NCBI GenBank assembly: GCA_003158475.1 | Contig: PMJR01000060.1 | Location: 1 to 37,380 of the forward strand | DNA from: Ignavibacteriota bacterium | Lineage (GTDB): Bacteria; Bacteroidota; Ignavibacteria; UBA10030; UBA6906 | Length of the DNA: 37,380 bases | Direction: 5' to 3' | Shown here: positions 10,229-31,379 of the stretch, one piece after another | Position numbering within the stretch: position 1 is the first letter of the stretch | How the letters are laid out: every line of letters starts with the position of its first letter | Program-made: the position numbers and the translations under genes | Notes under the pieces: generated by a model | Told to the model about the DNA's origin: nothing | Databases searched by the model: none | Seen by the model: only the letters and a program-made list of their open reading frames with translations

Positions 10229-10229
10229 G

Positions 10230-11543
10230 ATGGCACGAAACCTCCCCACGGGCTTCCTCATTTCTTGCGGCGTCCTGATGGAGCTCTGCTTTCTGAGCTT
10301 CTATCTCATGTCCCCCGGTCCCGGGGAAGTGCTCCTCTTTATCGCCGTCAATGTGGTGACGTTCCTCCTCCTTTCTTTTCTCCTCTGGCGCCTGCAGAAA
10401 GAACATGAGCCTGCCGGGCGGAGGTGGATCATCCTCATTGCGGCATTCGGGATCCTTTTCCGCCTGACGCTCATCCCGCACGGCATCATAGGTTCAGACG
10501 ACATATACCGGTACCTCTGGGACGGAAAGGTGGCCGCTGCAGGCATCAACCCGTTTGCCTACACCCCCACTGATCCGCATCTGTCCCGCCTGGCGACCGC
10601 TGACCTCCCGTCGAAAGTCAACCACCCGGAGATGAGAAGCATCTACCCGGCGCTTGCGCAATTTCTGTTCCTGACTGCGCATGCGCTCTTCGGTGACTCC
10701 GTCTGGGGGATAAAACTCCTGCTGGCAGGCCTGGATTGCCTGACGATATTTTTCATCTGGAGGTTCGTCCGTGAACGCGGGAACCCGGTGATCCCGGTTC
10801 TCCTGTATGCCTGGTGTCCGCTTCCGGTCCTGTACTTCGCGCTCGACGGGCACATCGACGCGCTCGGCATTCCATTCCTCATCCTGGGCCTCCATTTTCT
10901 CTCGACGCGGAGGTCCGTGCGGGGAGCACTCGCGATCGGGCTGAGCGCTCTTGCGAAGCTCATTCCTCTTCTCGTCCTCCCCCTCCTCCTCAGAGATCTG
11001 AGGGGGTTCCGCCGTTTCCTGATCCCGGCGATACCCGTGCTCATTGTCCTGGCCGGCGCCTTCATCTACTATGAGCCTTCGTGGGGCGTTGTCGAATCGC
11101 TGACGACATTCGGATCACGCTGGGAATTCAACGGGAGCATATTCTCCATCACGTACTTCCTGACGGGGTCCAACGAGGCAGCCCACATCGTCAGCGGAAT
11201 CCTGATTGCGCTCTCCATGGGCCTTCTCACGCTCATCGACCGCCCGTTCCTGGAGAAGGTGTTCTGGGGGTTCGTCGGGTTCATGCTCCTCTCACCCGTC
11301 GTTCATCCCTGGTACCTCACGTGGCTTGCCGCGCTCCTGGCGCTCCGCTGGTCGCCGGCCGTGTTTGTTTTTCTCGGCATGTCTGCTCTGGCGAACGTGG
11401 TGGTCTACCAGTACAGGGCGGACGGCGAGTGGATTGACCGGCCGTTCCTTCTTCTCATCGAATATCTCCCTGTCTTTGTCCTTCTCGTCCGCGAGATACT
11501 CCGGGGGGAAGTGCTCCCCGCGTCCGGGCGTGCTGCTGCCTGA
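10230..11543 (+). CDS. GT-C type membrane glycosyltransferase-like protein (GT87/DUF2029-like)
   Basis: An integral membrane protein of about 437 residues with roughly ten hydrophobic helices. The first loop holds SDDIYRYLWDGKVAA followed by GINPFAY, with acidic residues near 90-91. That arrangement is typical of polyprenyl-phosphate-sugar-dependent GT-C glycosyltransferases of the mannosyltransferase kind. The ATG at 10230 follows the dehydrogenase stop by one base and is preferred; a GTG at 10218 in the same frame would overlap that gene. It lies between catabolic genes, where a sugar-transferring membrane enzyme is unexpected. It may decorate envelope glycans with a sugar drawn from this pathway, or simply share the transcript. 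The donor and acceptor cannot be told from sequence. Confidence 0.7.
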   Translation: MARNLPTGFLISCGVLMELCFLSFYLMSPGPGEVLLFIAVNVVTFLLLSFLLWRLQKEHEPAGRRWIILIAAFGILFRLTLIPHGIIGSDDIYRYLWDGKVAAAGINPFAYTPTDPHLSRLATADLPSKVNHPEMRSIYPALAQFLFLTAHALFGDSVWGIKLLLAGLDCLTIFFIWRFVRERGNPVIPVLLYAWCPLPVLYFALDGHIDALGIPFLILGLHFLSTRRSVRGALAIGLSALAKLIPLLVLPLLLRDLRGFRRFLIPAIPVLIVLAGAFIYYEPSWGVVESLTTFGSRWEFNGSIFSITYFLTGSNEAAHIVSGILIALSMGLLTLIDRPFLEKVFWGFVGFMLLSPVVHPWYLTWLAALLALRWSPAVFVFLGMSALANVVVYQYRADGEWIDRPFLLLIEYLPVFVLLVREILRGEVLPASGRAAA

Positions 11544-16100: not shown

Positions 16101-16234
16101 ACCTCGAGGAAGGCAAGTGTCTCGAGATCGCACACCCACATGGGAAGGGGGTGATGGAAGAACATGAGGCGGAAGATGTCCTCGCTTGCCTCAGGTTGCG
16201 GTTTCGATCTGCGAGGAGCTTTTCGTGGTTTCAT
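13139..16234 (-). CDS. Soluble hybrid sensor histidine kinase: five PAS domains, HisKA, HATPase, receiver
   Basis: A 1031-residue cytosolic signalling protein. Five PAS domains follow one another, each closing with a D-I-T-E/R-R-K-R-like linker near residues 130, 259, 390, 520 and 643. The dimerisation/phosphoacceptor domain has GGIAHDLNNVLAP with His670. The ATPase domain has LLNMLVNARDAMPNGG (N box), DSGTGIP (G1) and GMGTGLGLS (G2). A C-terminal receiver has IIDDEAAI, the phosphoacceptor Asp961 in ITDIMMPVMDG, and FLTKPY. No transmembrane segment or DNA-binding domain is visible. ATG 16234 is chosen over the upstream TTG at 16255 because an AAGG site lies 8 bases before it. It converges on the GH28 gene. 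With no response-regulator partner nearby, its output and signal are unknown; the PAS domains could sense redox state, oxygen or small ligands. Confidence 0.93.
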   Translation of the reverse strand: MKPRKAPRRSKPQPEASEDIFRLMFFHHPLPMWVCDLETLAFLEVNAAAVEKYGYSRDEFLKMTLRDIHPSQDGTHLLDNIAKLRSELEQPGESRHALRNGRIIDVEVTSQTLSYHGRKASLVIGRDITERKRAEEALQESKRRLSSIYDTVGDVIFHLTVEANGSYRFSSVNQAFCNLTGLGAHMVVGKLVNEVIPEPSLSLALEKYRQAIEENSNLRWEERSEYPTGRLIGEVSIAPVFDDSKTCVGLVGSMHDITRRKRGEEALRQSELRYKHLLESVTAYTYTVEIQNGSPLSTVHGSGCEKVTGYTPSDYSSNPRLWLEMVPLNDRHIVEHYADPLCEGIDIPALEHRILHKNGQVVWVRNTYVLKYDDNGKVAGYDGLISDITERKRAEEVVRDSEERFRMVFEHVFDGISIYSEDPDPSRRILVECNDRYAVMAGRSREELLRIGNTQGLQKTIEDSANSKRLESLNQGTAYAGSFSWIRPDGKENVIEYVGMPITWRGKSLSIGIDRDITERRMAEEHIKQSEEQFRLIAENVADMIAVLDLDGKRIYNSPSYESILGDPESLKGTDGFQEIHPQDRERVKQVFQETVRTGIGQRLEYRFLLEDGTVRSIDSKGSVIRDSDGRISQVIVVSRDVTEEKRLAAQFLRAQRMESIGTLAGGIAHDLNNVLAPIMMAIEVLRSKIADPGGQYILNTIETSAKRGADIVRQVLAFGRGVEGDRILVQLKHIVIEVVRIAGQTFPKSIDIRTDIPRDLWTVSADPTQMHQVLLNMLVNARDAMPNGGALTISAENTTLDESYSRMHLEAKPGTYVSLAIADSGTGIPADIREKIFEPFFTTKEIGMGTGLGLSTTLAIVRSHKGFINVYSEVGKGTTFRIYIPATGTGSGAAAAGDQADLPTGKGELILIIDDEAAIREITSETLQAYGYKAMTASDGAEGVALFAENKGRIKVVITDIMMPVMDGTAAILALKKMNPDVKIIAASGLTTRGQIKTPSNYNVQAFLTKPYTAEKLLRALATVLLGTSV

Positions 16235-16456
16235 GGCTGTGACCTTTAAGCGCAAAAACCTCCCTCATCGCTATGCGAATCAGGAGGTTTTCCGTTTCAA
16301 TCCCAGCTCACACAGGATCCGGGTCGAGTTTATGTTCTGCAAATGTAGACAATCGTCACGACTGTGGCAAGCCATGCAGAGACGAGAGAACGGGAAAGAA
16401 GGAAATAGCTCAAATATCTCCGGAAACAGACAATTCTCCGATCCATGTCAAATTGA

Positions 16457-16911: not shown

Positions 16912-18756
16912 TCACTTGTACGAGATTTCGATCCTGGCCACCTGACAGTCTGCTGCAAGGACGATTTTCACGAACTCTCCTTCAGGGGGAGCCGGCCGGG
17001 CTGAGTACCTGACGCACGTGTACGCGCCGTATTCGTTCTTCAGCGGTTCAAACACCTGCCGCGTGACAGGGAAAGGGGAGAGACTCCCTGCGGTGCTCCC
17101 GGTGAGGAACGCCATTGCTGTATCCGCGTTTTTTTTCGCTGCAAAGAGGTCGACACGGAGAGATGTGACTCCTCCCGGCAGCCTGTAGAGTATGAAATCT
17201 CCCGTCTTCCCCTGGACCCGGCTCCTGTCTTCCTTCGCCTTTGCCGCGTCCCTCGGTGAAAGGAACACCAGGTCTCCGGACTTCGAGTACCATTGCGAGT
17301 CATTCTCCATCTCGTCTATCAGCGTCCTGTCGCCGGCAGTGACCGGCCCGGCGGGATCCGATAGTTCCGAGTAGCCTGCGTCATTCCTCGCCCTGATCTG
17401 GTATGTGTAGCGTTTGCCGGGCCGCGCCGTACTGTCGCTGTAGAGCGGGCGATACCCGACATCGGCGTCGCTCGCTTTTGAGGCTATGACCTGCCAGAGC
17501 GGATCGTCATCGGACTTTCTCTCGATCAGGTAGGAGGACGCTCCCGCCGAACCCTGCCATGAGATTTTGTACGGTGACTCGATCGGGAGGAGTTTCGGTG
17601 TCGCCGGGGGAAGAACAATCTCCGGCGTCTTTCCGTTGATCTGGTATGCTTTCTCGCGAAAGAGTCGCGTGACCGCCTTCTCATCCCATGCCTTCCCGGA
17701 TTCGAACCCGGGCCACCTGTACGCGTTCTCGTGGTAATAGAATCCGCCGTCCCTGTTATGCGAACGAAGGCTCCAGACCATGATCCCTGAGATCCCTTTC
17801 GCGATCACCGTATCGATGATCCGCCTCATGTCCGCCGCCGGTATGAATCCGAACTCGCCGACGAAGTAGGGCTTCCTGTTTCTTGCTTTCTCCCTTGCCG
17901 CCGTGATTCTCAGTATGGATTCCGTTGCGGGCGCATACGTGTGTGTGGAGAGGACATCGATGTTCGTGTCGTTGAGCGCCTCGTCGCTGATCTCCCCCCT
18001 GTTCGTCCCTTCGATGACGATGTGGTTGGTGTCGAGGCTCTTGATATATGCGGCGATTTCTCTCGTCCAAGAGTAGGGACAAACAAGCTCGTTGCCGGTC
18101 TCCCAGCCGAAAATCGCCCTGTCCTGTTTGAACGGCACGCCGGTATACGTGTTCACTCTGTTGACGATGAACGCCACCGTCTTCTTGAAATCGGCGATGA
18201 GGAGCGAGTCCGTCCAGAATTCCTCCTTGCTCTTCCCGCGGAAGCCAGCATACTCTTTCGGCCCTCCCCACCACCACCAGTTATCCACGAGGGGTATGAT
18301 GACGCGGACACCCGTCTGATTTGCGACCTGCAGTATCCTGTCGTACGCCCTGAACGCTTCCTCGTTGAACTCGCCGGGGCCGGGCACGTGCCGTATGATG
18401 CTCGAATCATCCGTGGCTTTCCGGACGGACGGGACGTACATGCGTGTGACGTTTCCCCCCATCTGCCTGATTGTCGTCAGAGCGTCGCGGATTTCGAATT
18501 CGTCGGCGATCCGCCACGGGCTCACCTCGCTGAACTGGTGGTTGTCTTCGATATAGTGAAGATTGGGGATGTTGTATGAGACAAACCGGACCTCCTCGTT
18601 TCCGTCCATCAGTTTGTCCCCGCGGGCCTTCAGGAAATTCTGAAACTGGGATGAGGCGGTACCTGAGAGGAGCAGAAGCAGGGCTCCCAGGGAAATGTGC
18701 ACGGTGAAGTGACACGCGTGCGTATTCGTTCGTCCTTTGGGTCTTCTGGTGTGCAT
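16912..18756 (-). CDS. Secreted GH5-like glycoside hydrolase with FnIII and C-terminal beta-sandwich
   Basis: A 614-residue secreted clan-A glycosidase. The start is placed at ATG 18756: it gives a signal peptide (hydrophobic core ISLGALLLLLSGTASS after a basic stretch), whereas the longer frame opening at 18795 would run through the operator region. The barrel spans about residues 45-385. The acid/base motif GWETGNELV has Glu223, and the nucleophile motif FVGEFGF has Glu301, 78 residues later, as in GH5 and relatives. WWWWGG near residue 160 suggests an aromatic subsite. An FnIII-like domain follows (about 400-490) and then a beta-sandwich of CBM type. It diverges from the 2-epimerase gene and shares its control region, so mannan or glucomannan is the likely polymer. 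The exact GH5 subfamily is not resolved. Confidence 0.78.
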   Translation of the reverse strand: MHTRRPKGRTNTHACHFTVHISLGALLLLLSGTASSQFQNFLKARGDKLMDGNEEVRFVSYNIPNLHYIEDNHQFSEVSPWRIADEFEIRDALTTIRQMGGNVTRMYVPSVRKATDDSSIIRHVPGPGEFNEEAFRAYDRILQVANQTGVRVIIPLVDNWWWWGGPKEYAGFRGKSKEEFWTDSLLIADFKKTVAFIVNRVNTYTGVPFKQDRAIFGWETGNELVCPYSWTREIAAYIKSLDTNHIVIEGTNRGEISDEALNDTNIDVLSTHTYAPATESILRITAAREKARNRKPYFVGEFGFIPAADMRRIIDTVIAKGISGIMVWSLRSHNRDGGFYYHENAYRWPGFESGKAWDEKAVTRLFREKAYQINGKTPEIVLPPATPKLLPIESPYKISWQGSAGASSYLIERKSDDDPLWQVIASKASDADVGYRPLYSDSTARPGKRYTYQIRARNDAGYSELSDPAGPVTAGDRTLIDEMENDSQWYSKSGDLVFLSPRDAAKAKEDRSRVQGKTGDFILYRLPGGVTSLRVDLFAAKKNADTAMAFLTGSTAGSLSPFPVTRQVFEPLKNEYGAYTCVRYSARPAPPEGEFVKIVLAADCQVARIEISYK

Positions 18757-18770
18757 ATCGGCGCGCCGTC

Positions 18771-18803
18771 TTATCATTATGATAAAAGTTATCAAAAGTA
18801 TAC
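18771..18803. promoter_or_regulatory. Tandem operator pair (TTATCAAAANSATAA family) with overlapping minus-strand -7 box
   Basis: Two 15-bp imperfect palindromes stand 18 bp apart centre to centre: TTATCATTATGATAA (18771-18785, perfect around its central T) and TTATCAAAAGTATAC (18789-18803). On the minus strand 18800-18793 reads TACTTTTG, an exact match to the Bacteroidota -7 consensus TAnnTTTG. Transcription of the GH5-like gene would begin about at the first palindrome. A protein bound here would cover promoter and start site, which fits repression. The same palindrome family is found at 31449-31482 and 36441-36455. The binding protein is not identified. Confidence 0.6.
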
Positions 18804-18959
18804 GAAGATTCTGCCAAGAAATGCATTCTGGATTGACTTTTCGGCGGTTTCTCCTAGCACGAAACTTGGGTAGTAATCATGGATGCACATGCTCACGGTA
18901 AGTCTCAAACATACTCACAAACGTACCAATTGATTCTTATAGAAGAAAGAGCAAAAGCC

Positions 18960-20345
18960 ATGCCCTCGGAGATACTCGAAGAATTGAAACAGGCCCTCTG
19001 TGACGGGATACTCAGAAGATGGTATCCACTCGTCGTCGACCGTGAATGCGGGGGGTACTTCACCAATGTGACCTGTGATTGGACTCTCCCTCCTGAGCAG
19101 GAGAAGATGATCGTCTCTCAGGCGCGGCATATCTGGACGGCGTCGAAGGTGGCGGCCTTTACCGGTGAGATAGACGTGTATCTCCCGATCGCACGGCACG
19201 GCTACGAGTTCCTCCGCGACGTGATGTGGGACAGCAAGTATGGCGGGTTCTATCAGATACGCGACAGGCGTGGCGGGATGTCGGAGTTCAGGGGATGGCG
19301 GGACGAGAAGAGGGCGTACGGAAACGCTTTTGCCCTCTACGGCCTGGCCGCCCTGTACAGCCTGACGAGGGACCCCGAGGTGCTCGAGACGGCCCGACGG
19401 GCATTCCAGTGGATAGAGGAGCATGCATATGACCCCCGTTTTGGAGGATATTTTGAGTTCCTCACACGGGAGGGGGAGCCGTTTGACAGGGGGAGCGTAT
19501 ACAAGACGATTGCCTCCGATGCCAACGAGCTTGGGTTCAAGGATCAGAATTCGTCAATACATCTCCTGGAGGCGTACACCGAGCTCTACAGGGTCTGGCC
19601 GGATCCGTTCCTGCGCGAACGTCTGACAGACCTGCTGGAGCTGATCAGGGATACCATGGTGCACGAACGCGGATACCTGCAGCTCTTCTTCGAACCCGAC
19701 TGGACTCCCGTTTCCTTCAGGGACTCCACCGAAGAGGTTCGGCGGCAGAACTTCGGGCTCGACCATGTGTCGTTCGGTCACGACTACGAGACGGCGTTCC
19801 TGATGCTCGAGGCGTCACATGCGCTCGGGCTGGAGAATGACACGAAGACGCTCCTCGTTGCCAGGAAGATGCTGGATCATGCGCTGGCGAACGGGTGGGA
19901 GCGGGGGGTCGGAGGGTTCTTTGACGGAGCATACTACTTCAACGGCAACGGCCGCTCGACGATCATACACGAGACGAAGAACTGGTGGGCACAGGCGGAG
20001 GCGCTCAACGCCCTCCTGCTGTTTTCCCGGATCTACCCCGAGTCGGAATACCGGTCGTATTTCCTTAAGCAGTGGGAATACGTGAAGAAGTTTGTTATTG
20101 ATCACGAGAGGGGTGACTGGTTCGAAGGGGGAATCGACAGGGAGCCGGACTTCAGGACCGGCCCGAAGAGCCACATCTGGAAATGCACCTACCACACGAC
20201 ACGGGCGCTCATGAACTGCATCGCGCTCCTGAGCTATGCCCATTCGCCGGTGTGGGGTGAAGGGTTCGACAGTGCAAGGAAGGAACTCACCGAGTTCGTC
20301 GGACACTGGCACAACACCGCCATGCAGGCAGCGATCACCGCATGA
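18960..20345 (+). CDS. Cellobiose/mannobiose 2-epimerase (AGE superfamily)
   Basis: An (alpha/alpha)6-barrel epimerase of the N-acylglucosamine 2-epimerase superfamily. Members interconvert the reducing-end glucose and mannose of beta-1,4-disaccharides. The length is 461 residues, slightly longer than the usual 390-420. ATG 18960 is preferred (AGAAAGAG upstream, family-like N-terminus); an in-frame ATG at 18879 adds 27 residues of no family character. Motifs are SQARHIWTASKV (Arg-x2-Trp), His201, GHDYETAFLMLEA with His274, ETKNWWAQAEALN, and WKCTYHTTRALMN with His412, which are the conserved barrel and catalytic residues of cellobiose 2-epimerases. With the GH130 phosphorylase at 28259-29446 it makes the known mannobiose to mannosyl-glucose to mannose-1-phosphate route. 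Its last 11 bases overlap the convergent PQQ-type dehydrogenase gene. Confidence 0.87.
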   Translation: MPSEILEELKQALCDGILRRWYPLVVDRECGGYFTNVTCDWTLPPEQEKMIVSQARHIWTASKVAAFTGEIDVYLPIARHGYEFLRDVMWDSKYGGFYQIRDRRGGMSEFRGWRDEKRAYGNAFALYGLAALYSLTRDPEVLETARRAFQWIEEHAYDPRFGGYFEFLTREGEPFDRGSVYKTIASDANELGFKDQNSSIHLLEAYTELYRVWPDPFLRERLTDLLELIRDTMVHERGYLQLFFEPDWTPVSFRDSTEEVRRQNFGLDHVSFGHDYETAFLMLEASHALGLENDTKTLLVARKMLDHALANGWERGVGGFFDGAYYFNGNGRSTIIHETKNWWAQAEALNALLLFSRIYPESEYRSYFLKQWEYVKKFVIDHERGDWFEGGIDREPDFRTGPKSHIWKCTYHTTRALMNCIALLSYAHSPVWGEGFDSARKELTEFVGHWHNTAMQAAITA

Positions 20346-22011
20346 ATACCATCTTCCGTACGGCGATGAAATTCGTGCCTGTCTCGAGGCGGTAGAAGTA
20401 CATTCCGCTGCCGGCGGACATTCCGTGGGAATCTCGACCATCCCACCGTACGCTGTGGGATCCGGCGGGAACGACGCCGTTCACGAGCGTGCGGACGAGC
20501 CGCCCGAGCAGGTCGTACACGGCGAGCGTGACGGTCCCGGAAGCTTGTGTCGAAAAATCAATAGCGGTGGAGGGATTGAACGGGTTCGGGTAATTCTGCA
20601 TCAGTGCGAATGCCTTCGGCGGATCGGAGGGCCGGGCCGCGCTCGTGCGGACATCCGCGGGAAGTGTTATTTTCCAGAGTTGCGGCTGGTTGTTTGGCTG
20701 TTCCAGTCCGGTTTCAAGTACGTACAGTATGTTCCCTGCAATTTCGATTCCCAGGGGGGAATTAAAGCCCCGCACAAGCCGTGTAACGCGGGCCGTATAC
20801 CCGCTGTCTGTTTTGGCAAGATCGATGTGCAGGAGGTCCTGGCTCGTGTCGCCGAGTGCCTGGAAGACGGCGCCGGTCGCCACACTGATGACAAAACCGC
20901 CCCCCTTGAGGTCGCCGGCAAGGACGGAATCCCTGTCAAAGACGATCCCGTCCGGCGACCGGTGCGCCGTGAACGTCGAGATCCTCCGGCCGGAGGTGCT
21001 TGCATCCAGGACGGTTCCCGTGAGTGTATCCCGGAACCTGTCGGCATCAGGTCCGGTACTCGGGATGGGTTCGGTAAACGTCACGTTGGCCGGTGGAGGT
21101 GGATAGGTCGGGTCATCGCTGTATGTCGTGTACAGAGCGCCGCCCCCCCACGCGTCGGGATTAAGGAGGGGATCATGACGGGGGTCGTACGGAGTGAATT
21201 GCTGCGGAGTGTTGTTCCCTCCGATCCGCCACGGGAAACCGTAATGACGTCCTTCCCGGATCCAGTTCAGCTCTTCAGGGTCGTCCCGGTCGTCTGAATT
21301 TTCAACGCCGAAAAGATCCCCGTTCCCGGCATACGCAAAATCGAATGTGTTGCGGGTGCCCTCCGAGAAGAGATATCCGTTCGAGCGAAGCCATTCCCTG
21401 TCATTCTGCAGCGTGATGTTCTGGCCATTGACGGGGAGTTTCAATATGATGGACGTTAGGCCGACTTCGCGATTTCCTTCACGAAGCTCGCCATGGTCCG
21501 TGGCGGCGCCGCTGTTGACGTAAAGGTAATCGCCGGACGGGGAGACAATGATGCCGCTCATCCTGTGATTGTACACATGACCGTACGGGTACGGAACGGT
21601 TCTCGCTACTATGGTCCATGCCCTGTGTTCGCTCCCGGGGACGTCGCGGACCCCTTTCGCGACGGTCGCCGTGCCGAGCACACCGGTCGAATCGTTCCCG
21701 ACGAGGAACATCGTCCCGTCCTTTGCAAACGCCATGCCCAGGGGGGCGTTCACCCCGTCGTCCGAAGGCCGGTAGACGACCGTGTCGGTTGCCAGTCCCC
21801 CGGCGCCGAATACGACACGGAGAATGTTTCCGTCATTCTGCAGGATATAGAGGTTACCTGTGGAGGGATCCCGCCGTATGCGCACCGAAGCGTGGCCGAC
21901 GGTCGCGAGTGCCGTGATGGTGATACCGGCGCGGGTCGGTTTCGGCTGTGCGGTGAGACAGCTCGCGGACACGCATGCGATGCAGAAGCATAAGGTGAAT
22001 ATTCTCTCCAT
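20335..22011 (-). CDS. Secreted PQQ-dependent sugar dehydrogenase-like protein with T9SS sorting domain
   Basis: A 558-residue six-bladed beta-propeller of the soluble aldose/L-sorbosone dehydrogenase (GdhB-like) group. It oxidises sugars outside the cytoplasm if loaded with PQQ. A signal peptide is seen at residues 1-21 (FTLCFCIACVSASCLTA). Family blocks include VNAPLGMAFAKDGTMFLVGN, a DFAYAGNGDLFGVEN calcium-loop region with DDRDDPEELN, and GRHYGFPWRIGG. The C-terminus (about residue 470 on) is a T9SS type A sorting domain with MQNYPNPFNPSTA, VYDLLGRLVRTL and MYFYRLETG. The start at 22011 is set by the signal peptide and a GGGAG site; the frame stays open upstream through the neighbour's antisense, which is a GC artefact. 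It diverges from the gene at 22084 across 72 bp. No PQQ synthesis genes are in the window. Confidence 0.83.
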   Translation of the reverse strand: MERIFTLCFCIACVSASCLTAQPKPTRAGITITALATVGHASVRIRRDPSTGNLYILQNDGNILRVVFGAGGLATDTVVYRPSDDGVNAPLGMAFAKDGTMFLVGNDSTGVLGTATVAKGVRDVPGSEHRAWTIVARTVPYPYGHVYNHRMSGIIVSPSGDYLYVNSGAATDHGELREGNREVGLTSIILKLPVNGQNITLQNDREWLRSNGYLFSEGTRNTFDFAYAGNGDLFGVENSDDRDDPEELNWIREGRHYGFPWRIGGNNTPQQFTPYDPRHDPLLNPDAWGGGALYTTYSDDPTYPPPPANVTFTEPIPSTGPDADRFRDTLTGTVLDASTSGRRISTFTAHRSPDGIVFDRDSVLAGDLKGGGFVISVATGAVFQALGDTSQDLLHIDLAKTDSGYTARVTRLVRGFNSPLGIEIAGNILYVLETGLEQPNNQPQLWKITLPADVRTSAARPSDPPKAFALMQNYPNPFNPSTAIDFSTQASGTVTLAVYDLLGRLVRTLVNGVVPAGSHSVRWDGRDSHGMSAGSGMYFYRLETGTNFIAVRKMVFMR

Positions 22012-22083
22012 TGGTCTCCCGGGGACTGAGTGTGGTGACAGGACAGCTACTCTTATAATGAAAGAATCACGCAGGAGGTTCCA

Positions 22084-23931
22084 ATGCACGGCAGAATCAA
22101 CACAGGATTCGCATTCACCCGGAAGACCCTGATCCTCATCCTGCTCCTCGGGCCGGTCTCTCTCCCCGCCCAGGGGAAGCAGGGGGAGACTCGCCCGGTC
22201 TGGTCGCACCTGAAATACGCTCTGTATTTCACATACGGGGAGATTGAGAAGCTCCTTCTCGATACCGCCTCCATGCGCGAGACGATGGAATACCTCGGCC
22301 CCGTCAGGGCCGGAAGGGTGTATCTGGAGTGCACGAGCGCAGGGGACGTCAATGTGGCTCAGATGAAGGATCTGGCCGCGAGATTCCGCGCCCTCGGGCT
22401 CAGGGTCTCGGGGGCCATGGTCCCGACCATCCCCGGGGGCCCGATGTGCTACAATAATCCCGATCACCTGGCACAGCTTGAACGGCGTTCGCGGGCGGTG
22501 GCACAGGTGTTCGACGACTTCATTCTTGACGATTGGCTTTTCACGACGTGCACGTGCGAGAAGTGCGTTGCGGGGCGGGGCAAATCCACCTGGGCCGACT
22601 ACAGGACGAAACTTCTCCTCGAGAAGTCGAAGAAATACATCATCGACCCCGCGCGCGAAGTACACCCCGGCATCAAAGTGACAATCAAGTATCCGAACTG
22701 GTACGAGGGGCACCGGGATAACGGGTACGACGTCCTGAACGAGACGCACCAGTTCGATGCGATGGCCGTCGGGATCGAGACCCGGACGCGCGCGACGCAC
22801 GATCAGCATATCCCGATCTACAGCGGGTATGTATTCCAGAAGTGGTGGTCCTCTGTCGATCCCGCGAAGTGGGTCGGCTCCTGGCTCGATAACTACACGA
22901 TGAAGGGGGAGGACAACGACTACGTGGCACAGGTCTGGCAGGCGGTGATGGCGCAGGCGCCGGAAATAATACTCTGGTCCGGCGGCCACCTCCACCACAC
23001 GGGACCCTTCAGTGACGTCTATGCCCATTTCCGCGAGATGCTCCCCGAGTTTGACCGGGTCGCAGGGATGCTGAACGGCCCTCCCCGCGGGGTGCCGATA
23101 TACCTCCCCTACGGGTCCGAGGGGGAATACAACATTTTCGGCTATCTCGGTATGGCCGGAATTCCGCTTGCCCCCGTGGGCCGGTTCCCGGCGGAGAGCC
23201 AGAACGCGATATTCACGAGGCATTCGCTGAGGGATCCCGACCTTGCCGAAAAAATGCTCGCCCGCCTCCGCGCCGGACACGACGTCTTCATGACGTGGGA
23301 ACTCCTCTGCAAGCTGCAGGACACCGAGTTCCGCAATACGCTGAACGTGATCGAGCCCGGCGGCAGCGTCTCATCCTCAGTGTTCAGGACACGTGCCGGA
23401 TGGAATGATCAGATCACGAAGGCAGACAGGGCGTTCGTATTTCCCCGGATTGGAACGACGACCTGGCCCTACGCAAGGGAAGTGGCGGTCGTGAGGGAAG
23501 ACGGCGACTTCGGTGTGCTTCTGAGCGTGAAGTACCTCAATGGAACCCTGTATGTCCTTAATATGCCTGAAAACAGTTATGATCTCCTCCGGCTTCCTCC
23601 GCAGGTGCTCAATATGATCCGCCGCGCGTTCAACGGTGAGCTGGGTGTGCAGCTCACCGGTCCGGGGGGTGTGGGCATGTACCTGTTCGGGAGCGGCCAG
23701 TACGTCCTCTACAATATGAGCGATGAGACTGCCAATGTATCGCTGAGGTTCGGCAAAAAGGTCGGGGAATCCGGCTGGCGGGAACTTGTCCACGGCAGAG
23801 GGCTTGCCGTCACCGAGGAGAAACCGCAGCACCGGTTCGACGGGGGGGGGACGTACGACGATGTTTCCCTGACTCTCCGGTCGTTCGAGATTGTGGTCGT
23901 TCAATCTCCTGACACGGGGGGTGTGCGATGA
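22084..23931 (+). CDS. Secreted protein of unknown function, probable TIM-barrel glycosidase
   Basis: A 615-residue protein I cannot assign to a named family. It has a signal peptide (hydrophobic core TLILILLLGPVSLPAQ) and an AGGAGG Shine-Dalgarno at 22073-22078, five bases before the ATG. The first 330 residues read like a barrel hydrolase. A strand ends in FILDDWLFTT with acidic Asp149-Asp150, followed by a C156-x-C158-x2-C161 knuckle. Later strands give IKVTIKYPNWYEG, FDAMAVGIETRTR and PEIILWSGGHLHHTG. The C-terminal third looks like beta-sandwich domains, which is common in accessory parts of glycosidases. Its stop overlaps the start of a beta-mannanase lipoprotein gene (ATGA), so the two are made together and may act on the same polymer. 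Glycoside hydrolase function is inference from fold-like features and context only. Confidence 0.6.
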   Translation: MHGRINTGFAFTRKTLILILLLGPVSLPAQGKQGETRPVWSHLKYALYFTYGEIEKLLLDTASMRETMEYLGPVRAGRVYLECTSAGDVNVAQMKDLAARFRALGLRVSGAMVPTIPGGPMCYNNPDHLAQLERRSRAVAQVFDDFILDDWLFTTCTCEKCVAGRGKSTWADYRTKLLLEKSKKYIIDPAREVHPGIKVTIKYPNWYEGHRDNGYDVLNETHQFDAMAVGIETRTRATHDQHIPIYSGYVFQKWWSSVDPAKWVGSWLDNYTMKGEDNDYVAQVWQAVMAQAPEIILWSGGHLHHTGPFSDVYAHFREMLPEFDRVAGMLNGPPRGVPIYLPYGSEGEYNIFGYLGMAGIPLAPVGRFPAESQNAIFTRHSLRDPDLAEKMLARLRAGHDVFMTWELLCKLQDTEFRNTLNVIEPGGSVSSSVFRTRAGWNDQITKADRAFVFPRIGTTTWPYAREVAVVREDGDFGVLLSVKYLNGTLYVLNMPENSYDLLRLPPQVLNMIRRAFNGELGVQLTGPGGVGMYLFGSGQYVLYNMSDETANVSLRFGKKVGESGWRELVHGRGLAVTEEKPQHRFDGGGTYDDVSLTLRSFEIVVVQSPDTGGVR

Positions 23932-25328
23932 TCTTCTTCCGCGGTCGCAGATTCAGAACCGGCTCACGCCATTTCGTAGGGCTCGCGAGCTGCGCCATCC
24001 TCGTCGTGCTCATGCAAGCATGCTCCGCGTTGTTCCCCGGCGGGGAACGGGATGATTTCATCAGGGTGCGCGGGACGCATTTCACCCACAACGGAAAACC
24101 GTATTACTTTGCCGGAACGAACCTCTGGTGGGGTTGTTATCTCGGTTCGCCCGGGGAAACGGGGGACCGGGCCAGGCTCCAGCGCGAGCTGGATTCCCTG
24201 CGTGCCGACGGGATTGAGAACCTTAGGATACTTGCCGCCTCTGAGGAGTCGTACCTGAAACGCTCGCTGCGCCCCGCCATCGAACGGGCCCCCGGAAACC
24301 TGAATGACTCACTCCTCCAGGGACTTGACTACCTGTTGGCCGAGATGGGGAAGAGGAAGATGCATGCCGTTCTCTTCCTGAACAACTACTGGCAATGGTC
24401 GGGGGGGATGTCGCAGTACAACGTGTGGGCCGACGGGGGGAAAGGCCCCGATCCGGACGACCCCGCCGAGGGATATCCCGCGTTCATGGAATTCTCCGCG
24501 AAGTTTTATTCCAATGAAAGAGCCGACGCGCTGTTCCGGGACTACGTCAGGACAATCGTCACGAGAAAAAATACGAGCAACGGCCGGCTCTATGCCGCCG
24601 ACCCGACGATCATGTCATGGCAGCTTGCGAACGAGCCCCGGCCGGGAACATTCGGTCCGGAGGGAGAGAAGAACCTCGAAGTGTTTTACCGCTGGATAAG
24701 CCGGACGTCGGAGTACATTCACATGCTCGATACGAATCATCTTGTCTCGACCGGGAGCGAAGGGGCGGTCGGTTTCCGATGGTCGAACGAGTATGCCTTG
24801 AGGACGCATGAATCGAAATACGTCGACTACCTGACGTTCCATCTCTGGCCGCTGAACTGGGGATGGTTCAATCCCATGAAGATCGACAGCACGCTTTCCT
24901 CGTCCGAGGAAAAAGCCGTCGAGTACGTCGGCTCTTGCCTTGCGACGGCACGGCAGCTCAACAAACCTGCGGTTCTTGAAGAATTTGGCTTCCCGAGAGA
25001 CAGCGCCAGATGTACGCCGGAGAGCCCGACAACGGCCCGGGACAGGTACTACACGAGGATACTGGGCGTCCTGGCGGATTCTGCGATCAGCGGTGCGCCG
25101 ATTGCAGGATTCAATTACTGGGGCTGGGGCGGGTCGGCGAGAGGAAAGAACGCAGACAACGTCTGGCGGAAAGGAGACCCCTTCGTCGGCGATCCGCCGC
25201 AGGAGCCTCAGGGGTACAATTCGGTTTTCCTAGCGGATACGTCGACGCGGCGGGTTCTGCGCGGGCACGCGTTCAGGATGATGAGCATCGGCCTGGACGA
25301 TTCCCTTTCTGCTGTCGGAAGACGGTGA
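23928..25328 (+). CDS. GH5_7-like endo-beta-1,4-mannanase, lipoprotein
   Basis: A 466-residue clan-A glycosidase that resembles GH5 subfamily 7 beta-mannanases. An N-terminal basic/hydrophobic segment ends in the lipobox LMQAC with Cys32 as the lipidation site, so it is probably anchored in a membrane and faces the periplasm or cell surface. The domain opens with FTHNGKPYYFAGTNLWWG, the usual mannanase start. The acid/base is Glu236 in SWQLANEPRPG, and the nucleophile is Glu352 in LEEFGFPRD. Other mannanase-like blocks are LFLNNYWQWSGGMSQY and TFHLWPLNWGW. Expected products are mannobiose and larger manno-oligosaccharides, feeding the epimerase and GH130 phosphorylase of this region. It is translationally coupled to the unknown gene upstream and converges on the GH31-PA14 gene. 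Confidence 0.88.
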   Translation: MIFFRGRRFRTGSRHFVGLASCAILVVLMQACSALFPGGERDDFIRVRGTHFTHNGKPYYFAGTNLWWGCYLGSPGETGDRARLQRELDSLRADGIENLRILAASEESYLKRSLRPAIERAPGNLNDSLLQGLDYLLAEMGKRKMHAVLFLNNYWQWSGGMSQYNVWADGGKGPDPDDPAEGYPAFMEFSAKFYSNERADALFRDYVRTIVTRKNTSNGRLYAADPTIMSWQLANEPRPGTFGPEGEKNLEVFYRWISRTSEYIHMLDTNHLVSTGSEGAVGFRWSNEYALRTHESKYVDYLTFHLWPLNWGWFNPMKIDSTLSSSEEKAVEYVGSCLATARQLNKPAVLEEFGFPRDSARCTPESPTTARDRYYTRILGVLADSAISGAPIAGFNYWGWGGSARGKNADNVWRKGDPFVGDPPQEPQGYNSVFLADTSTRRVLRGHAFRMMSIGLDDSLSAVGRR

Positions 25329-25366: not shown

Positions 25367-28159
25367 TCAAAACCTGACGTTCATTCTTTTCCCCCTGTAT
25401 TCGACCGTTGTATCCGGGGCGGCGGTGAAGTTCGCGCCTGCCCCGTGGTCTTTCCTCACAAGGACAATCGTGAATGGTCGCGACACAGAAGCTCCCCGGT
25501 AGCTCCCCCGCCGTTGGCCGAGGACTAACGTCCTCCGGGACTCGTCCCAGTGTATGGGAATGAGTGCGTAGAGTCCCTTCTCGTAGTCATACGTGTCCCC
25601 TTCATCGTCGTAGAGCTCGAAGTCGGCGTCCTTGCCCGTGTAGACCCGCAGTTCCGTGGGTGCGCTGCTCTGTTCCGTCGCGTACTGAATGTCCGGCCCC
25701 AGCGGGACGATCGACCCGCCGGGCACGTACAGGGGGATGCGGCTGATGGGAGCATCCGCACGGACCCCTTTCCCGCCTGCCGTGGATTTCCCGGTCCAGA
25801 AATCAAACCATGTGGTGCCGCGCGGAAGATAGACGCCGGTCGTCCCGGCCTCCCCCGTCGAATCGTCGGGCTGCGCCCAGTTGAGTTTCAGTAGGGCGTT
25901 GTTCGTTTTGAACTGTCTGTGTTCGAGCCGGAACGGGTACTTGACGCCGGCCGAGAGATCGACGGGCGCGGAGAACGTTGTGCGGACCCTGTTTTCGGGT
26001 TCGTCGATGACAGGCTTGTTGTCAAGCCAGAGGCGCACGCCGCCGTCGGTGATCACGTACAGCGTGTGGCGGCCGGCCCGTGCTCCTGTCATGATCGCAC
26101 CCTTCATCCTCACGGAATAGGAAGTGTCAAGCCCGTCAGGGAGACAGCCTGACCAGCTGATCTGGCTCGCGTCTGTCTTTCGCGTGAGTATCAGGTGCTC
26201 GAAGGATGTACCGCGGAAGACCTGGAACTCGCAGCCATGCTCACTGCCGTCGGCGGAATAGAAATGGGCCGGTGTGATGTCCACCCCGTTGTAGACCGGG
26301 AAATTGATCATGGGATGGGTTACCGGGCAGACCATGATTGCGGACCCGAACATGTATTGATCGGCGATGGAATAGACGGCCCTGTCGCCGGGAAAATCCA
26401 TCGGGAGTCCGCGGATGAAGGAGTAGTCGTCGTGTGTGACCTTCCAGGCCGTGGAATAGATGTACGGCATGAGCCTGTAACGGAGCCGGTCGCCCGCCGC
26501 CAGCGCGTCATACGCCCAGTCGCCTTGCTCGCCGAATTGCCATATTTCGCGGGGGATATTCGTCCCGTGCGCCCGAAAAATCGGGGAGAAAGCGCCGAAC
26601 TGGAACCACCGTACGTACAGTTCCTTGTAGGCAGGGTCGCCCAGACCCCCCGGGAAATGAATGTCGGTGATGAACCCTCCGATATCATGTGTCCAGTACG
26701 GGATCCCTGACATCGAGAAGTTGATGCCCGCGGCGATCTGCACGCGCAGGTCGTCCCATGTAGCGAACGTATCACCCGACCATGTGGCGGCGCCGTAGCG
26801 CTGCTGTCCCGCAAATGAGGAACGGGTCAGGATAAATACGCGCTTCCGGTCGGTGGCGAGCCGGTGGTTGTCGTACACGGCCCGGGTCGTCATGAGCGAA
26901 TAGGGATTGAGATATCTGGCGAAATCCCCGAGGAAGTTTTTCCCCGCCTTTTTCATCGAGAGTTCCGTGATGTACCTGTCGTCGCTGCAGCGGAATTCCG
27001 GTTCTGTCGCATCCATCCAGTACGCGTCCACGCCGTTATCGAAGAGGCCTCTCCTGACGTATTTCCAGTAGATATCCCTCGCTTCGGGATTGTAGGCATC
27101 GTACACCCTCCCGCCGTTCCAATGGGGGACCGCGTACAGGAGATTCCGGGCATTCATCTCCCTGTAAATTTCCGTTGCCGGGCCGAACGCGGGCCAGATC
27201 GACACCATGAGATGCGCGTTGTAGTGATGGAGCGTGTCCGTCATGCGGCGGGGCTCCGGGTAGTTGACGGAATCCCACATCATGCTGCTGAACTGGTCCA
27301 TCCCCCCCCAGTAGCTCCAGTCCTGCACGACGTTGTCCAGGGGGAGCCCTCTTCTCCGGTATTCCCTGACGATGCCGATGAGCTCCTGGCCGGTTTTGTA
27401 CCGTTCCTTGGATTGCCAGTAGCCAAACGCCCATTTTCCCGCGAGGGGTGCCTTGCCTGTCAGAAGTCGGTACCCCGCGACCACCCTGTCCAGACCCGGA
27501 CCGTGTACAACATAGTAGTCGATCCCGTCCGCAACCTCCGATTGGAACAGGGTCGTTTCCCTGCTGTCGGAAAAACGGGATCGGGAATAGTTGTCCCACA
27601 GTATGCCGTATCCCTTCGTCGAGACGAGGAAGGGGTTCACGGCCGTACGGTTCGCCTGCTCGATGAGGATGTCCTGACCCCGGTAGTTGACGATGGGGTC
27701 CTCGAACTGCCCGAGCCCGTATATCCCCTCTTCGTCGCTGAGTGAGAAGTGCTGTGTGACACGGTATGCCCCTCCCTGCGCTGCCGGCTCAAACGTCTCC
27801 GCGCCTGGTCCCTGTGAAACCAGAAACAGCTTTCCCCCGTTGTCGGAGAACCTGAGCTCCCCGTTCCGCCTGTTGACACGGACGGCCATCTCCCGGGTCG
27901 AGATCATGAGCGTGTCACCCCTCCCTGTCGCTTTGGAGGCCACATGCACAGGGACCGCAATCACGCTCAGGCTCGCGCCGGGGAAGAGAGTGGTGTCGGG
28001 TGAGACCCTCACCCGGATGATACCGGGAGCGTACCACTGCAGTGCGATCCGGCGGTGCTGGACATCAATCCGGTACGACGTCTCCTGCGCACAAACCCGG
28101 GTCGCAAGAAGAAGGCACAGAAGAGGGAGGTGTATCCGGACGCCGGGTCTTGAGGGCAT
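25367..28159 (-). CDS. Secreted GH31 glycosidase with PA14 insert, probable alpha-xylosidase
   Basis: A 930-residue family GH31 enzyme. ATG 28159 is chosen since it opens a signal peptide (HLPLLCLLLATRVCAQ); the frame extends to 28219 without family character. The nucleophile lies in AYWMDATEPEF (Asp383). Further GH31 blocks are NVVQDWSYWGGMDQF, ILTRSSFAGQQRYGAATW and WTHDIGGFIT. A PA14-like domain occupies about residues 645-765, between the barrel and the last beta domain. GH31 enzymes with a PA14 domain include characterised xyloglucan alpha-xylosidases of Cellvibrio and Bacteroides, so removal of xylose from xyloglucan oligosaccharides is the likely role, supplying XylB. It is a clear paralogue of the GH31 at 31546-33921, which lacks PA14. 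It lies downstream of a candidate terminator after the GH130 gene, so it may need its own promoter. Confidence 0.88.
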   Translation of the reverse strand: MPSRPGVRIHLPLLCLLLATRVCAQETSYRIDVQHRRIALQWYAPGIIRVRVSPDTTLFPGASLSVIAVPVHVASKATGRGDTLMISTREMAVRVNRRNGELRFSDNGGKLFLVSQGPGAETFEPAAQGGAYRVTQHFSLSDEEGIYGLGQFEDPIVNYRGQDILIEQANRTAVNPFLVSTKGYGILWDNYSRSRFSDSRETTLFQSEVADGIDYYVVHGPGLDRVVAGYRLLTGKAPLAGKWAFGYWQSKERYKTGQELIGIVREYRRRGLPLDNVVQDWSYWGGMDQFSSMMWDSVNYPEPRRMTDTLHHYNAHLMVSIWPAFGPATEIYREMNARNLLYAVPHWNGGRVYDAYNPEARDIYWKYVRRGLFDNGVDAYWMDATEPEFRCSDDRYITELSMKKAGKNFLGDFARYLNPYSLMTTRAVYDNHRLATDRKRVFILTRSSFAGQQRYGAATWSGDTFATWDDLRVQIAAGINFSMSGIPYWTHDIGGFITDIHFPGGLGDPAYKELYVRWFQFGAFSPIFRAHGTNIPREIWQFGEQGDWAYDALAAGDRLRYRLMPYIYSTAWKVTHDDYSFIRGLPMDFPGDRAVYSIADQYMFGSAIMVCPVTHPMINFPVYNGVDITPAHFYSADGSEHGCEFQVFRGTSFEHLILTRKTDASQISWSGCLPDGLDTSYSVRMKGAIMTGARAGRHTLYVITDGGVRLWLDNKPVIDEPENRVRTTFSAPVDLSAGVKYPFRLEHRQFKTNNALLKLNWAQPDDSTGEAGTTGVYLPRGTTWFDFWTGKSTAGGKGVRADAPISRIPLYVPGGSIVPLGPDIQYATEQSSAPTELRVYTGKDADFELYDDEGDTYDYEKGLYALIPIHWDESRRTLVLGQRRGSYRGASVSRPFTIVLVRKDHGAGANFTAAPDTTVEYRGKRMNVRF

Positions 28160-28188
28160 GGTATCGAATGCTCCCGATGTGGAAGGGG

Positions 28189-28230
28189 AAAAAACAGCGA
28201 ACGCCGGCGCCACTGGCAACGCCGACGTTC
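28189..28230 (-). terminator. Candidate factor-independent terminator after the symporter-GH130 operon
   Basis: Read on the minus strand, an 11-bp stem with one G-U pair (GAACGTCGGCG with CGCCGGCGTTC, 10-base loop) lies about 30 bases after the GH130 stop and is followed four bases later by TTTTTT (28194-28189). This is the best terminator-like structure in the window. It falls just before the GH31-PA14 gene at 28159. Confidence 0.6.
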
Positions 28231-28258: not shown

Positions 28259-29446
28259 TTATTTTTTCTTGAGCAGTTTCAGGTTCCTGTCGATCAGGGC
28301 GATCCTCTGCTGTACGCTTGCCGCGCTCCGCAAGCCGTCTTCAGGCGTGTGCAGGACATAGTCGAGGAGCTTCTCCGTCGTTGAAGTCGCGACGTGCATC
28401 CTCGTGTCGGACGAAGCGTAGTAGATCAACACGTCACCGTTCGGTCTCATCACCCAGCCGCTGCTGAAGACAACATTGGAGACATCGCCGACACGTTCCT
28501 CCCCCTCGGGTGCGATGAAATAGCCTGCAGGGCGGGCAATGACCTTGTACGGGACCTTCAGATCGCACAGGAACATGTAGAGCACGTAACGTAATCCCGC
28601 GGCGGTGTTGCGTACGCCGTGGGCCAGATGGAGCCACCCTTCAGCGGTCTTGAGAGGTGCCGGACCGAGCCCGTTTTTCACCTCCTTGATCGTGTGGTAG
28701 GCGCGGTCATCGACGATGATCTCGCTGTTGATCTGCGCGTGGTCGATGGAGTCGGACAACCCCCAACCTATCCCCCCTCCGGAACCCGCTTCGATGAAAC
28801 CGTCCTGGGGGCGTGTATAGAAAGCGTACTTCCCCTGGACGAATTCCGGGTGAAGGACGACATTGCGTTGTTGTGCGGACCCGGTTTTGAGATCCGGCAG
28901 CCGTTCCCATGTGACAAGGTCTTTTGTCCGCGCCATGCCGCATTGTGCGATGGCGGAGGAGAGGTCGGTCCTGGGGGCACAGGGGTCCTTCCGTTCGGTG
29001 CAGAACAGCCCGTACAGCCACCCGTCTTCATGCCTGACGAGCCGCATGTCGTACACATTGGTGTCCGGGTCGTCGGTCTCGGGCAGGACGACGGGATAGT
29101 CCCAGAACCGGAACCTGTCGATCCCGTTCGTGGATTCCGCGACCGCGAAAAATGATTTCCTGTCCGACCCTTCGACGCGGAGCATGAGAAGGATCTTCCC
29201 CTTGTGTTCGATCGCGCCCGCGTTGAACGCGGCATTCACGCCGATCCTTTCCAGGAGATGCGGGTTGGAGGCATGGTGAAGGTCGTACCGCCAGAAAAGA
29301 GGGGTATGCGCCGCCGTGACGACAGGATGGACATACCTGTTGAAGATCCCGTTCCCGCCGGCAGCTTTCTTGTTTGGCTTCGCAATCAGCCTTTTGTGTT
29401 CAATCGTCAGTGCGGCGAGCTTCCTTGAAAACTGTGCGCGTGTCAT
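28259..29446 (-). CDS. GH130 4-O-beta-D-mannosyl-D-glucose phosphorylase
   Basis: A 395-residue five-bladed beta-propeller phosphorylase of family GH130, subfamily 1 in appearance. It cleaves mannosyl-beta-1,4-glucose with phosphate to give alpha-mannose-1-phosphate and glucose in the cytosol. The length equals that of the characterised Bacteroides fragilis enzyme. The catalytic Asp133 lies in [16 protein letters not shown], and other family blocks are [44 protein letters not shown] and [14 protein letters not shown]. There is no signal peptide. It starts in an ATGA overlap with the symporter gene, which implies that the symporter imports its substrate or the precursor mannobiose. The partner 2-epimerase is encoded 8 kb away but appears to share the operator. 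Mannosylated N-glycan substrates (other GH130 subfamilies) are less likely given the motifs. Confidence 0.92.
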
Positions 29447-31320
29447 TGTTTTGCTCCCGCGGGGGCCAGAGGGATTGCCGGGATCGCCCGGACATCTCCC
29501 CTGGCGGCTATTTCGTCGTCGACGTCGGAAATCTCATCGAGTTTGTTCCACCAGTTGAATTTGAGTATCACGGAGGTGGCCACCAGGACGCCCAGCGTCA
29601 CAAGCATGGAGGTCGTTTCGTGAATGACGATAAAAATCGGGAGCGCAACAAGCGTCGTCTGCCATGTCGTGCCGACGACGACATTGAACATGTCGCGCTT
29701 GAAGTTCTTGTTCGGCTGGAAATCCGGATGCCGCAGGCGGACTTTTGCGAGGACCGGACCCCAGAACCCCCAGGGCTTTACCCGCGTGTAGAAATCGATG
29801 AGGACGTCGTCCGGCTCGGGGTCTGTCAGGTAGCTGCCTGCCACGCATCCGATGATGGAGACACCCAGCACGTACGGGAACGCGGAGAGTGCGGCGACCG
29901 AGGGGACGAATGCCGCGAGAACGAATGCCGACCCGATCCCGGCGACCATGCCCCAGAAATATCCGTACCCGTTGAGCCGCCACCAGTACCACTTCAGGAC
30001 GTTGGCGGCGGTGTATCCGGGGAAGAGGGCATTGACGATCCACAACATGACTTCGTTGATGGAGCCGACGATGAGTCCGACGCCGAACCCGAGAAGGACG
30101 AACACGATCGAGACGATGTAGCTCATCCGTACGTACTTTTTTGGATGTGCGTTGGGGTTGATGAACCGCTTGTAGATGTCGTTGACGACATACGCGGGGG
30201 CTGCGTTGATCGTCGCCGCGTAATTCGACATGAATGCGGCAATCAACCCCGCGAGGATGAGTCCCACCCATCCCACCGGGATGAGGTTCTTCAGCGCGTA
30301 GGGGAGGACCATCTCAAAGTCAATATTGGGTCCCATGGCTTTCAACTGGGGACTGAAAAACGCGAGGGCCAGCACGGTCAGACCGGCGATCATCATATAG
30401 CGCGGGAAGAAGAGGGCGACGTTGACGAAGAAACTCATCTTCGATGCGTCTTTCGGCGATCGCGTCGCGAGCACACGCTGCATGTCGTAGTTGGGGGCGG
30501 GACCGGCGGCGCTCACAAGGATTCCTTTAAAGACCATCAGCATGAAGAAGATCGAGAAGAGGCTGTACCCGTCACTCTGGATCTTCGTGTTCACAGCGTC
30601 GATGAGTCCCGTCCAGTTCAGGTTAAGGTTCCATCCGAAGAAGATGTCTTTCCATCCGGCGGGGATCACCGCATTGAGCATCTCGGGGCTGACGGCATTC
30701 ATCGCGATGATGCCCACGGCAAGAGAAGCAATCGTCAGGACGATGAACTGGAGAAACTCTGTGATGACGACGCTCATCATCCCTCCCTTCACGGCGTACA
30801 CCGCCGTGAAGCTCATCAGGATGACGGCATACGTGGCGGGCGACCAATCCCACGGGAGGAATATCTTTGCGAATTTCCCGATTCCCTGAAAGCCGTACGC
30901 GAGGAATCCGATGACGCTGACAAGCGCGAATATCACGACGATGATATGCGCAAGCTGAGCCCCGGTGCTGGTCCCGAACCGGGTCTTGATCCATTCCGCT
31001 CCTGTCATCACTTTCGACCGACGCAGCCAGATGGACAGGTAGACCATCAGGAATATCTGGTTGAATACCGGCCACACCCAGGGGAGCCACACGCTCTTCA
31101 GCCCGTAGACAAACAGGACGTACACGAGCCACATTGTTCCGGTGATGTCGAACATCCCGGAGGCGTTGGAAACGCCGAGCATCCACCAGGGGAGCGAGTT
31201 CGAGCTGAGGAAGTAGGAGTCGATGTCCTTGATCGCCCTCCGGGACACAAGGAAGCCGAGGACGATCACAGCGGCAAAATACGCCAGGATAATGGCGATG
31301 TCGATAACGTCAATTTTCAT
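29443..31320 (-). CDS. Sodium:solute symporter (SSS/SGLT family), probable manno-disaccharide importer
   Basis: A 625-residue membrane protein with about 13-14 hydrophobic helices of the SSS family. It begins with [20 protein letters not shown] and then the family motif [15 protein letters not shown], and later [25 protein letters not shown] and [19 protein letters not shown]. The ATG at 31320 starts exactly at the first helix; a TTG at 31341 would add seven polar residues. No Shine-Dalgarno is evident. Members import sugars and other solutes using the sodium gradient. Its stop overlaps the GH130 start by four bases, so the imported sugar is inferred to be mannobiose, mannosyl-glucose or a short manno-oligosaccharide. 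It would be the only inner-membrane sugar importer in the window, and no ABC, MFS or TonB-dependent partner is seen. Confidence 0.9.
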
Positions 31321-31379
31321 TGGATGGGGGTCTTTCGGCAATCAGGGACGGATCGTCTCGCCGCCGTCACCTTCACAAA

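Follow-up and report, generated by a model that had tools for sequence, protein, structure and literature searches.

The locus and its genes

The window analyzed here, meaning the whole stretch of 37,380 nucleotides, is contig sequence from an Ignavibacteriota bacterium. Within it, the gene termed P0001 lies in a cluster of genes for mannan-type enzymes, which contains the following.

16912–18795, minus strand: secreted GH5, endo-beta-mannanase-like (Pfam GH5; PDB 3pz9, E 6.5e-24)
18879–20345, plus strand: AGE-family epimerase, cellobiose/mannobiose 2-epimerase-like (PF07221; PDB cellobiose 2-epimerases and AGE epimerases)
22084–23931, plus strand: P0001, putative secreted three-domain glycosidase of 615 amino acids, with a strong AGGAGG Shine-Dalgarno sequence just upstream
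23928–25328, plus strand: GH5, exo-beta-1,4-mannosidase-like, with a lipobox-like N-terminus
25367–28219, minus strand: GH31 with a PA14 domain, alpha-xylosidase-like (BoGH31A, 5jou, E 2.8e-172)
28259–29446, minus strand: GH130, 4-O-beta-mannosyl-glucose phosphorylase-like (3was, E 2.2e-179)
29443–31341, minus strand: sodium:solute symporter, likely for sugar uptake (PF00474, E 5e-29; same neighbor at locus L061)
31546–34029, minus strand: second GH31 of the cluster

P0001 begins with an ATG at 22084 and ends with a stop codon at 23929–23931. An earlier note, written from the DNA letters, had given this reading frame with its coordinates and length, all of them correctly, and had pointed to an ATGA overlap with the next gene. 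The overlap is present at 23928–23931 and is kept in the relatives L001, L002 and L059. The partner, a GH5 gene, had been called a beta-mannanase; its best PDB matches are exo-beta-1,4-mannosidases (Cellvibrio mixtus Man5A, 1uuq, E 6e-121; 4lyp, E 3.6e-72), and endo-mannanases are further off (1rh9, E 7e-36). Its product carries the lipobox-like motif LVVLMQAC and has no Pfam-A GH5 match despite the strong homology to 1uuq.

Several other features of the window were observed. The PA14 domain is inserted in the first GH31, and the presence of two GH31 genes hints at xyloglucan besides mannan. Inside the mannan cluster, a gene at 20335–21993 (minus strand) encodes a secreted beta-propeller that resembles glucose/sorbosone dehydrogenases and carries a type IX secretion tail; the frame of this gene stays open antisense through 23280. 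A multi-PAS hybrid histidine kinase/response regulator (13139–16255, minus strand) is located between sugar-acid genes and the mannan cluster. An ORF of 441 amino acids (10218–11543, plus strand), without a Pfam match at E 0.01, has a zinc dehydrogenase gene on one side and a GH28-like gene on the other.

Reading frame and export signal

Comparison of P0001 with L001 gives 227 differences at third codon positions against 61 and 55 at first and second positions, and the other two relatives compared give 232 against 58 and 50, and 284 against 105 and 77. Third-position changes are approximately three to four times as numerous as first- or second-position ones in these three relatives, a pattern which indicates that P0001 is under strong purifying selection and that the plus-strand frame is the selected one. 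Because of this third-position excess, the long antisense ORF at 20335–23280 was ruled out as the coding frame here.

The features of the P0001 product are as follows, all on the plus strand.

22084–22176: signal-peptide-like N-terminus, approximately residues 1–31
22195–23079: predicted (beta/alpha)8 catalytic barrel, approximately residues 38–332
22447–22566: four-cysteine set C122, C156, C158 and C161, presumed structural (metal site or disulfides)
22528–22533: Asp149-Asp150, end of barrel strand 4
22687–22704: K202-x-P204-N205-W206-Y207, predicted strand 5
22777–22785: E232-T233-R234, predicted strand 6, with E232 a candidate catalytic partner
22882–22890: W267-x-D269, predicted strand 7, with D269 the other candidate partner
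23080–23928: GH42-type C-terminal half, residues 333–615 (trimerization-like Rossmann domain and C-terminal beta domain)

The product is apparently secreted. The export-type N-terminus proposed in the earlier note is seen by eye in P0001 and, by the same inspection, in nearly all of its relatives; in this comparison the sequence of L003 is trimmed and the start of L059 was set too far upstream by the choice of ORF.

Family status and relatives

The P0001 product has no match in Pfam, NCBIfam or the PDB sequences, in agreement with the earlier note, in which no named family was recognized. Its distant relatives likewise match nothing in Pfam or NCBIfam, no member has a Pfam or NCBIfam assignment when searched one by one, and the 27-row family used as a profile finds no named Pfam or PDB-sequence match. 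Among individual Pfam models, there is no match to PF02449 or PF08532 (GH42), with PF02449 empty for P0001 and all 27 members even at E 10, none to PF07555 (NAGidase, GH84) and none to PF02638 (GHL10) or PF14871 (GHL6) in any family member. PF14871 was tried as a guide and set aside, since its matches in other genomes are GH29, GHL10 and GH13 proteins and the model is therefore too general to help. PF14883 (PgaB-type GHL13) had no member above the cut-off in 118 Bacteroidota genomes, and thus no profile of that type could be built for comparison. The family is new relative to Pfam, NCBIfam and the PDB sequences, and it may already carry a CAZy number.

The family alignment comprises 27 rows, namely the P0001 product and 26 relatives of 26–84% identity, all of them from Bacteroidota/Ignavibacteriota. 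The genome collection gave five loci, in Ignavibacteriae and Bacteroidetes MAGs, several of which come from one fen. Within the class, 25 of 391 genomes have a profile match (two of them marginal, with E near 1e-3), and within the phylum 6 of 296 do, while searches of viral contigs with two alignments, and of plasmids, found no relative. Long, fully supported branches split the tree into two subfamilies, approximately 26–30% identical to each other, of which the close one is 53–84% and the distant one 26–28% identical to the P0001 product. A distant paralogue, L019, occurs in P0001's own genome (G000:C7, 1899–3677); it has the same four cysteines, and a GH97 gene directly follows it.

Conserved residues and cysteines

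Sixteen positions are identical in all 27 rows: D149, D150, R174, K202, P204, N205, W206, Y207, D225, E232, T233, R234, Q241, H242, W267 and D269. The earlier note had described the Asp149-Asp150 pair beside a C156-x-C158-x2-C161 knuckle, both of which are present in P0001, and had proposed to check their invariance. The acidic pair is constant down to 26% identity and ends a strand (residues 145–149) in both structural models; the variable acidic residues that the note had named as a refutation are thus not seen.

The cysteines behave differently and are not invariant. A fourth cysteine, C122, co-occurs with the three of the knuckle; all four are found in 9 rows, from both subfamilies, while 2 rows have C122 and C156 only and 16 of the 27 have none. 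C158 and C161 are never present without C122 and C156. On the tree, the cysteine states require 4 changes compared to 9.7 when shuffled, although such clustering alone is evidence only of an inherited label. This pattern fits a set that is lost as a unit, and the cysteines look structural, forming either a zinc site or two disulfides. The idea that the knuckle is a catalytic element, or part of the active site, was rejected because it is missing from 16 rows that keep the Asp pair.

Domain architecture

The C-terminal half was compared by hhalign with a GH42 set, consisting of ten proteins of this phylum that carry GH42 domains. Residues 333–615 align over 235 collinear columns, which cover the trimerization domain and the C-terminal beta domain, with 84% probability, an E-value of 7.7e-6 and a score of 51.3. 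As controls, the highest score among 100 column shuffles is 30.6 and that of the reversed profile is 18.4, and the same half gives approximately 0.1% probability against GHL10, GH84 and GH29 profiles. When the subfamilies are scored separately, the distant one reaches 33.6 and the close one 20.2; the support for GH42 therefore needs both together in one profile and can be called moderate. At that strength, the profile suggests a GH42-like C-terminal half.

The N-terminal part is less well defined. AlphaFold2 was run on the full-length protein and on the isolated barrel, with six sequences each, and the models are poor (pLDDT 52.5 and 58.6, pTM 0.45 and 0.60); strands 5–8 are therefore predicted only. 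In both weak models, strands and helices alternate as in a (beta/alpha)8 barrel, and TIM-barrel glycosidases lead the fold searches. With the barrel model as a weak query, Foldseek places human O-GlcNAcase first (E 1e-3, TM 0.34) and gives the best TM-score, 0.42, to Cwp19, a GHL10 protein; with the full-length model, human O-GlcNAcase chains dominate the list. In VIA-align the GH42 barrel 5e9a is at the top (Z 8.3, 240 aligned residues, rmsd 5.1); many clans come within 1 to 2 Z and are in effect tied, O-GlcNAcase among them at Z 6.5–7.3. GH164 is not among the fold-search rows, an absence that is uninformative. The barrel profile gives nothing significant against GH42, GHL10 (26 proteins), GH84 (8 proteins) or GH29. 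By its pattern and by the company it keeps, this part would be a TIM-barrel glycosidase, to which the GHL10, GH42 and GH84 barrels each match weakly. The earlier description, a barrel-like N-terminal part with a beta-rich C-terminus, holds as far as a barrel is predicted, and can be refined to a barrel, a GH42-type trimerization-like domain and a beta domain.

Neighborhoods of relatives

The pairing of a P0001-type gene with the GH5 gene recurs at L001/L051, L002/L050 and L059. In genome G558 (L061), the gene is accompanied by an endo-mannanase-like GH5, an epimerase, a GH130 and a symporter. Four close relatives and G558 are the only ones of 20 close members with a mannan-type neighborhood; no mannan gene is seen beside the other 15, one of which has a GH3 neighbor. 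Approximately 14 of the 20 close relatives have no glycosidase neighbor, their gene standing alone or beside unrelated genes, while six of the seven distant members adjoin a GH97, GH2, GH59, GH88-like or GH9 gene. In G558, a protein of 1030 amino acids with a weak GH42 barrel match (L061, 4957–8049, minus strand) is encoded divergently beside the P0001 relative.

The earlier note had taken the gene overlap as an argument for a joint role on mannan. An exo-beta-mannosidase-like partner and the mannobiose epimerase and GH130 genes nearby agree with it, whereas a neighborhood of this kind in only 5 of 20 close relatives does not. Carbohydrate breakdown is the common theme of the neighborhoods; mannan is a local one, and the mannan coupling is lineage-specific.

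Proposed enzyme and alternative readings

It is proposed, with somewhat better than even confidence, that P0001 encodes a secreted glycoside hydrolase that combines a barrel with GH42-type trimerization and beta domains and uses an Asp-Asp active site on hemicellulose oligosaccharides. Residues 38–332 would fold as the (beta/alpha)8 barrel, and residues 333–615 would form the Rossmann-like trimerization domain and the C-terminal beta domain. The suggestion of a candidate glycosidase family in the earlier note gains support from this architecture, which fits a glycosidase, and from the invariance of the acidic pair.

In the GHL10 structure Cwp19, Asp195-Asp196 on strand 4 replace Asn160-Glu161 of GH42, and Gly328 stands in place of the strand-7 Glu (PMC5765458). 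The D149-D150 pair with its following aromatic residue fits this pattern, and on this ground D150, at the strand-4 end, is put forward as catalytic acid, or as acid/base should the mechanism be retaining. Asp149 would correspond to the Asn of clan A. As partner of D150, either Asp269 on strand 7 or Glu232 on strand 6 may serve, since apart from the pair these are the only invariant acids that the prediction places at the end of a strand, and the cysteine set would have a structural role. A more specific proposal, which is tentative and falls short of an even chance, is that a GH42-type homotrimeric frame carries a non-clan-A active site made up of the strand-4 pair and one of these two partners, a mechanism that would be new on this frame.

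The known GH42-type trimers are beta-galactosidases and exo-beta-mannosidases of GH164 and GH5. The GH164 enzyme Bs164 is a homotrimeric exo-beta-mannosidase with a barrel, a trimerization-type domain and a beta domain (PMC7105311), and the GH5 enzyme Op5Man5 is a homotrimeric exo-beta-mannosidase with a barrel and a trimerization-type domain (PMC8233224). This suggests a trimeric exo-enzyme here. By analogy with GH42 and GH164, the product would probably form homotrimers, and its active site would be a pocket that works in exo fashion, releasing terminal sugars from oligosaccharides of hemicellulose. In P0001's genus, it would be co-translated with the GH5 exo-beta-mannosidase-like lipoprotein, and its probable task would be the trimming of galactoglucomannan- or xyloglucan-type chains before uptake. 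Because an alpha-xylosidase-like GH31 lies nearby, xyloglucan-type chains are as likely as mannan.

The barrel admits other readings. In O-GlcNAcase, one Asp of a strand-4 pair orients the 2-acetamido group of the substrate and the next is the acid, and the pair in P0001 could serve likewise in a GH84-like, substrate-assisted hexosaminidase acting on GlcNAc/GalNAc glycans. The leading place of human O-GlcNAcase in Foldseek would agree with this, but its modest E-value and TM-score come from a weak model. In the GH84 alignment, strand 4 has DD, strand 5 CPxxY and strand 7 W-DN, which LDD, YPNWY and WLDN resemble here, and a low-threshold hhalign run paired DD with DD and PNWY with PTxY without being guided to do so; however, the profile score of 25.6 is inside the shuffle range (up to 30.3), with 1–4% probability against the eight GH84 proteins. 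The strand-1 GFYG and strand-2 KDD motifs are not seen in the P0001 family, the C-terminus resembles GH42 and not GH84, and the cluster in the window points to mannan and xyloglucan, whose sugars carry no 2-acetamido group. This reading is considered distinctly unlikely. It is also unlikely that the protein belongs to the broad group of GHL10/GHL6-type barrels (Cwp19, PgaB-like) and has gained a GH42-type tail. This membership is favored by the TM-score of Cwp19 and by an hhalign register of strands 3 to 8 with the 26 GHL10 proteins (177 columns, LDDWLF on FDDYFY), whose score of 25.3 is just over all 40 shuffles (maximum 25.0). Nevertheless, its probability is 2% and the reversed profile scores 23.6, no member matches the corresponding Pfam models, and the conserved strand-1 Trp and the QxY motif of GHL10 are not recognizable in the P0001 family.

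Finally, the protein could be a catalytically dead, carbohydrate-binding or scaffold partner of the GH5 exo-mannosidase. It has no known activity, and its single conserved translational coupling is found within one genus. However, the GH5 partner is missing in most relatives, and the many acidic and polar residues at predicted strand ends that are invariant across both subfamilies would be unexpected of a decayed enzyme, which makes this reading very improbable.

Significance

The secreted protein of this peat bacterium could represent a new enzyme family for plant-fiber breakdown. If confirmed, the hydrolase proposed above would add a family of hemicellulose-degrading enzymes from uncultured bacteria of peat and soil, divided into two subfamilies among Bacteroidota/Ignavibacteriota genomes, and a GH42-type trimeric frame would have been joined to a different catalytic barrel. 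In addition, the 27-row profile gives automatic annotation a model where nothing is returned now. The discovery of new GH families is a regular event, and with an activity that is putative here the finding is not a startling one.

Comparison with known enzymes

The GH42 beta-galactosidases (5e9a, 4uni; Glyco_hydro_42, 42M and C-terminal domain) resemble the P0001 product in overall architecture and, by profile, in the C-terminal domains, and it is the barrel of 5e9a that best matches the P0001 barrel model in VIA-align. However, strand 4 ends in Asn-Glu in GH42 and in Asp-Asp in every row of the P0001 family. The strand-7 nucleophile of GH42 and GH164 (clan GH-A) is a Glu, while in the P0001 family only Asp269 is invariant at the predicted strand 7, where the model is unreliable.

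Bs164 and Op5Man5 have the barrel and the trimerization-type domain that are predicted for P0001, and Bs164 also has a beta domain, as predicted for P0001 (PMC7105311, PMC8233224); the window adds a mannan context. Their catalytic residues on strands 4 and 7, Glu160/Glu297 in Bs164 and Glu156/Glu281 in Op5Man5, are those of clan GH-A; the P0001 family ends strand 4 in Asp-Asp and has no invariant Glu at its predicted strand 7. GHL10 (Cwp19) is alike in the Asp-Asp-aromatic end of strand 4 and similar in how strands 3 to 5 are spaced, but differs in the motifs of strands 1, 6 and 7, gives no significant profile match and has no GH42-type tail. The GH84 O-GlcNAcases are alike in the adjacent strand-4 Asp pair, in the P-x-x-Y and W-DN-like motifs and in their top Foldseek rows for both weak models; they differ in lacking profile support, in having GFYG and KDD motifs that the P0001 family lacks, and in the architecture of the C-terminal part.
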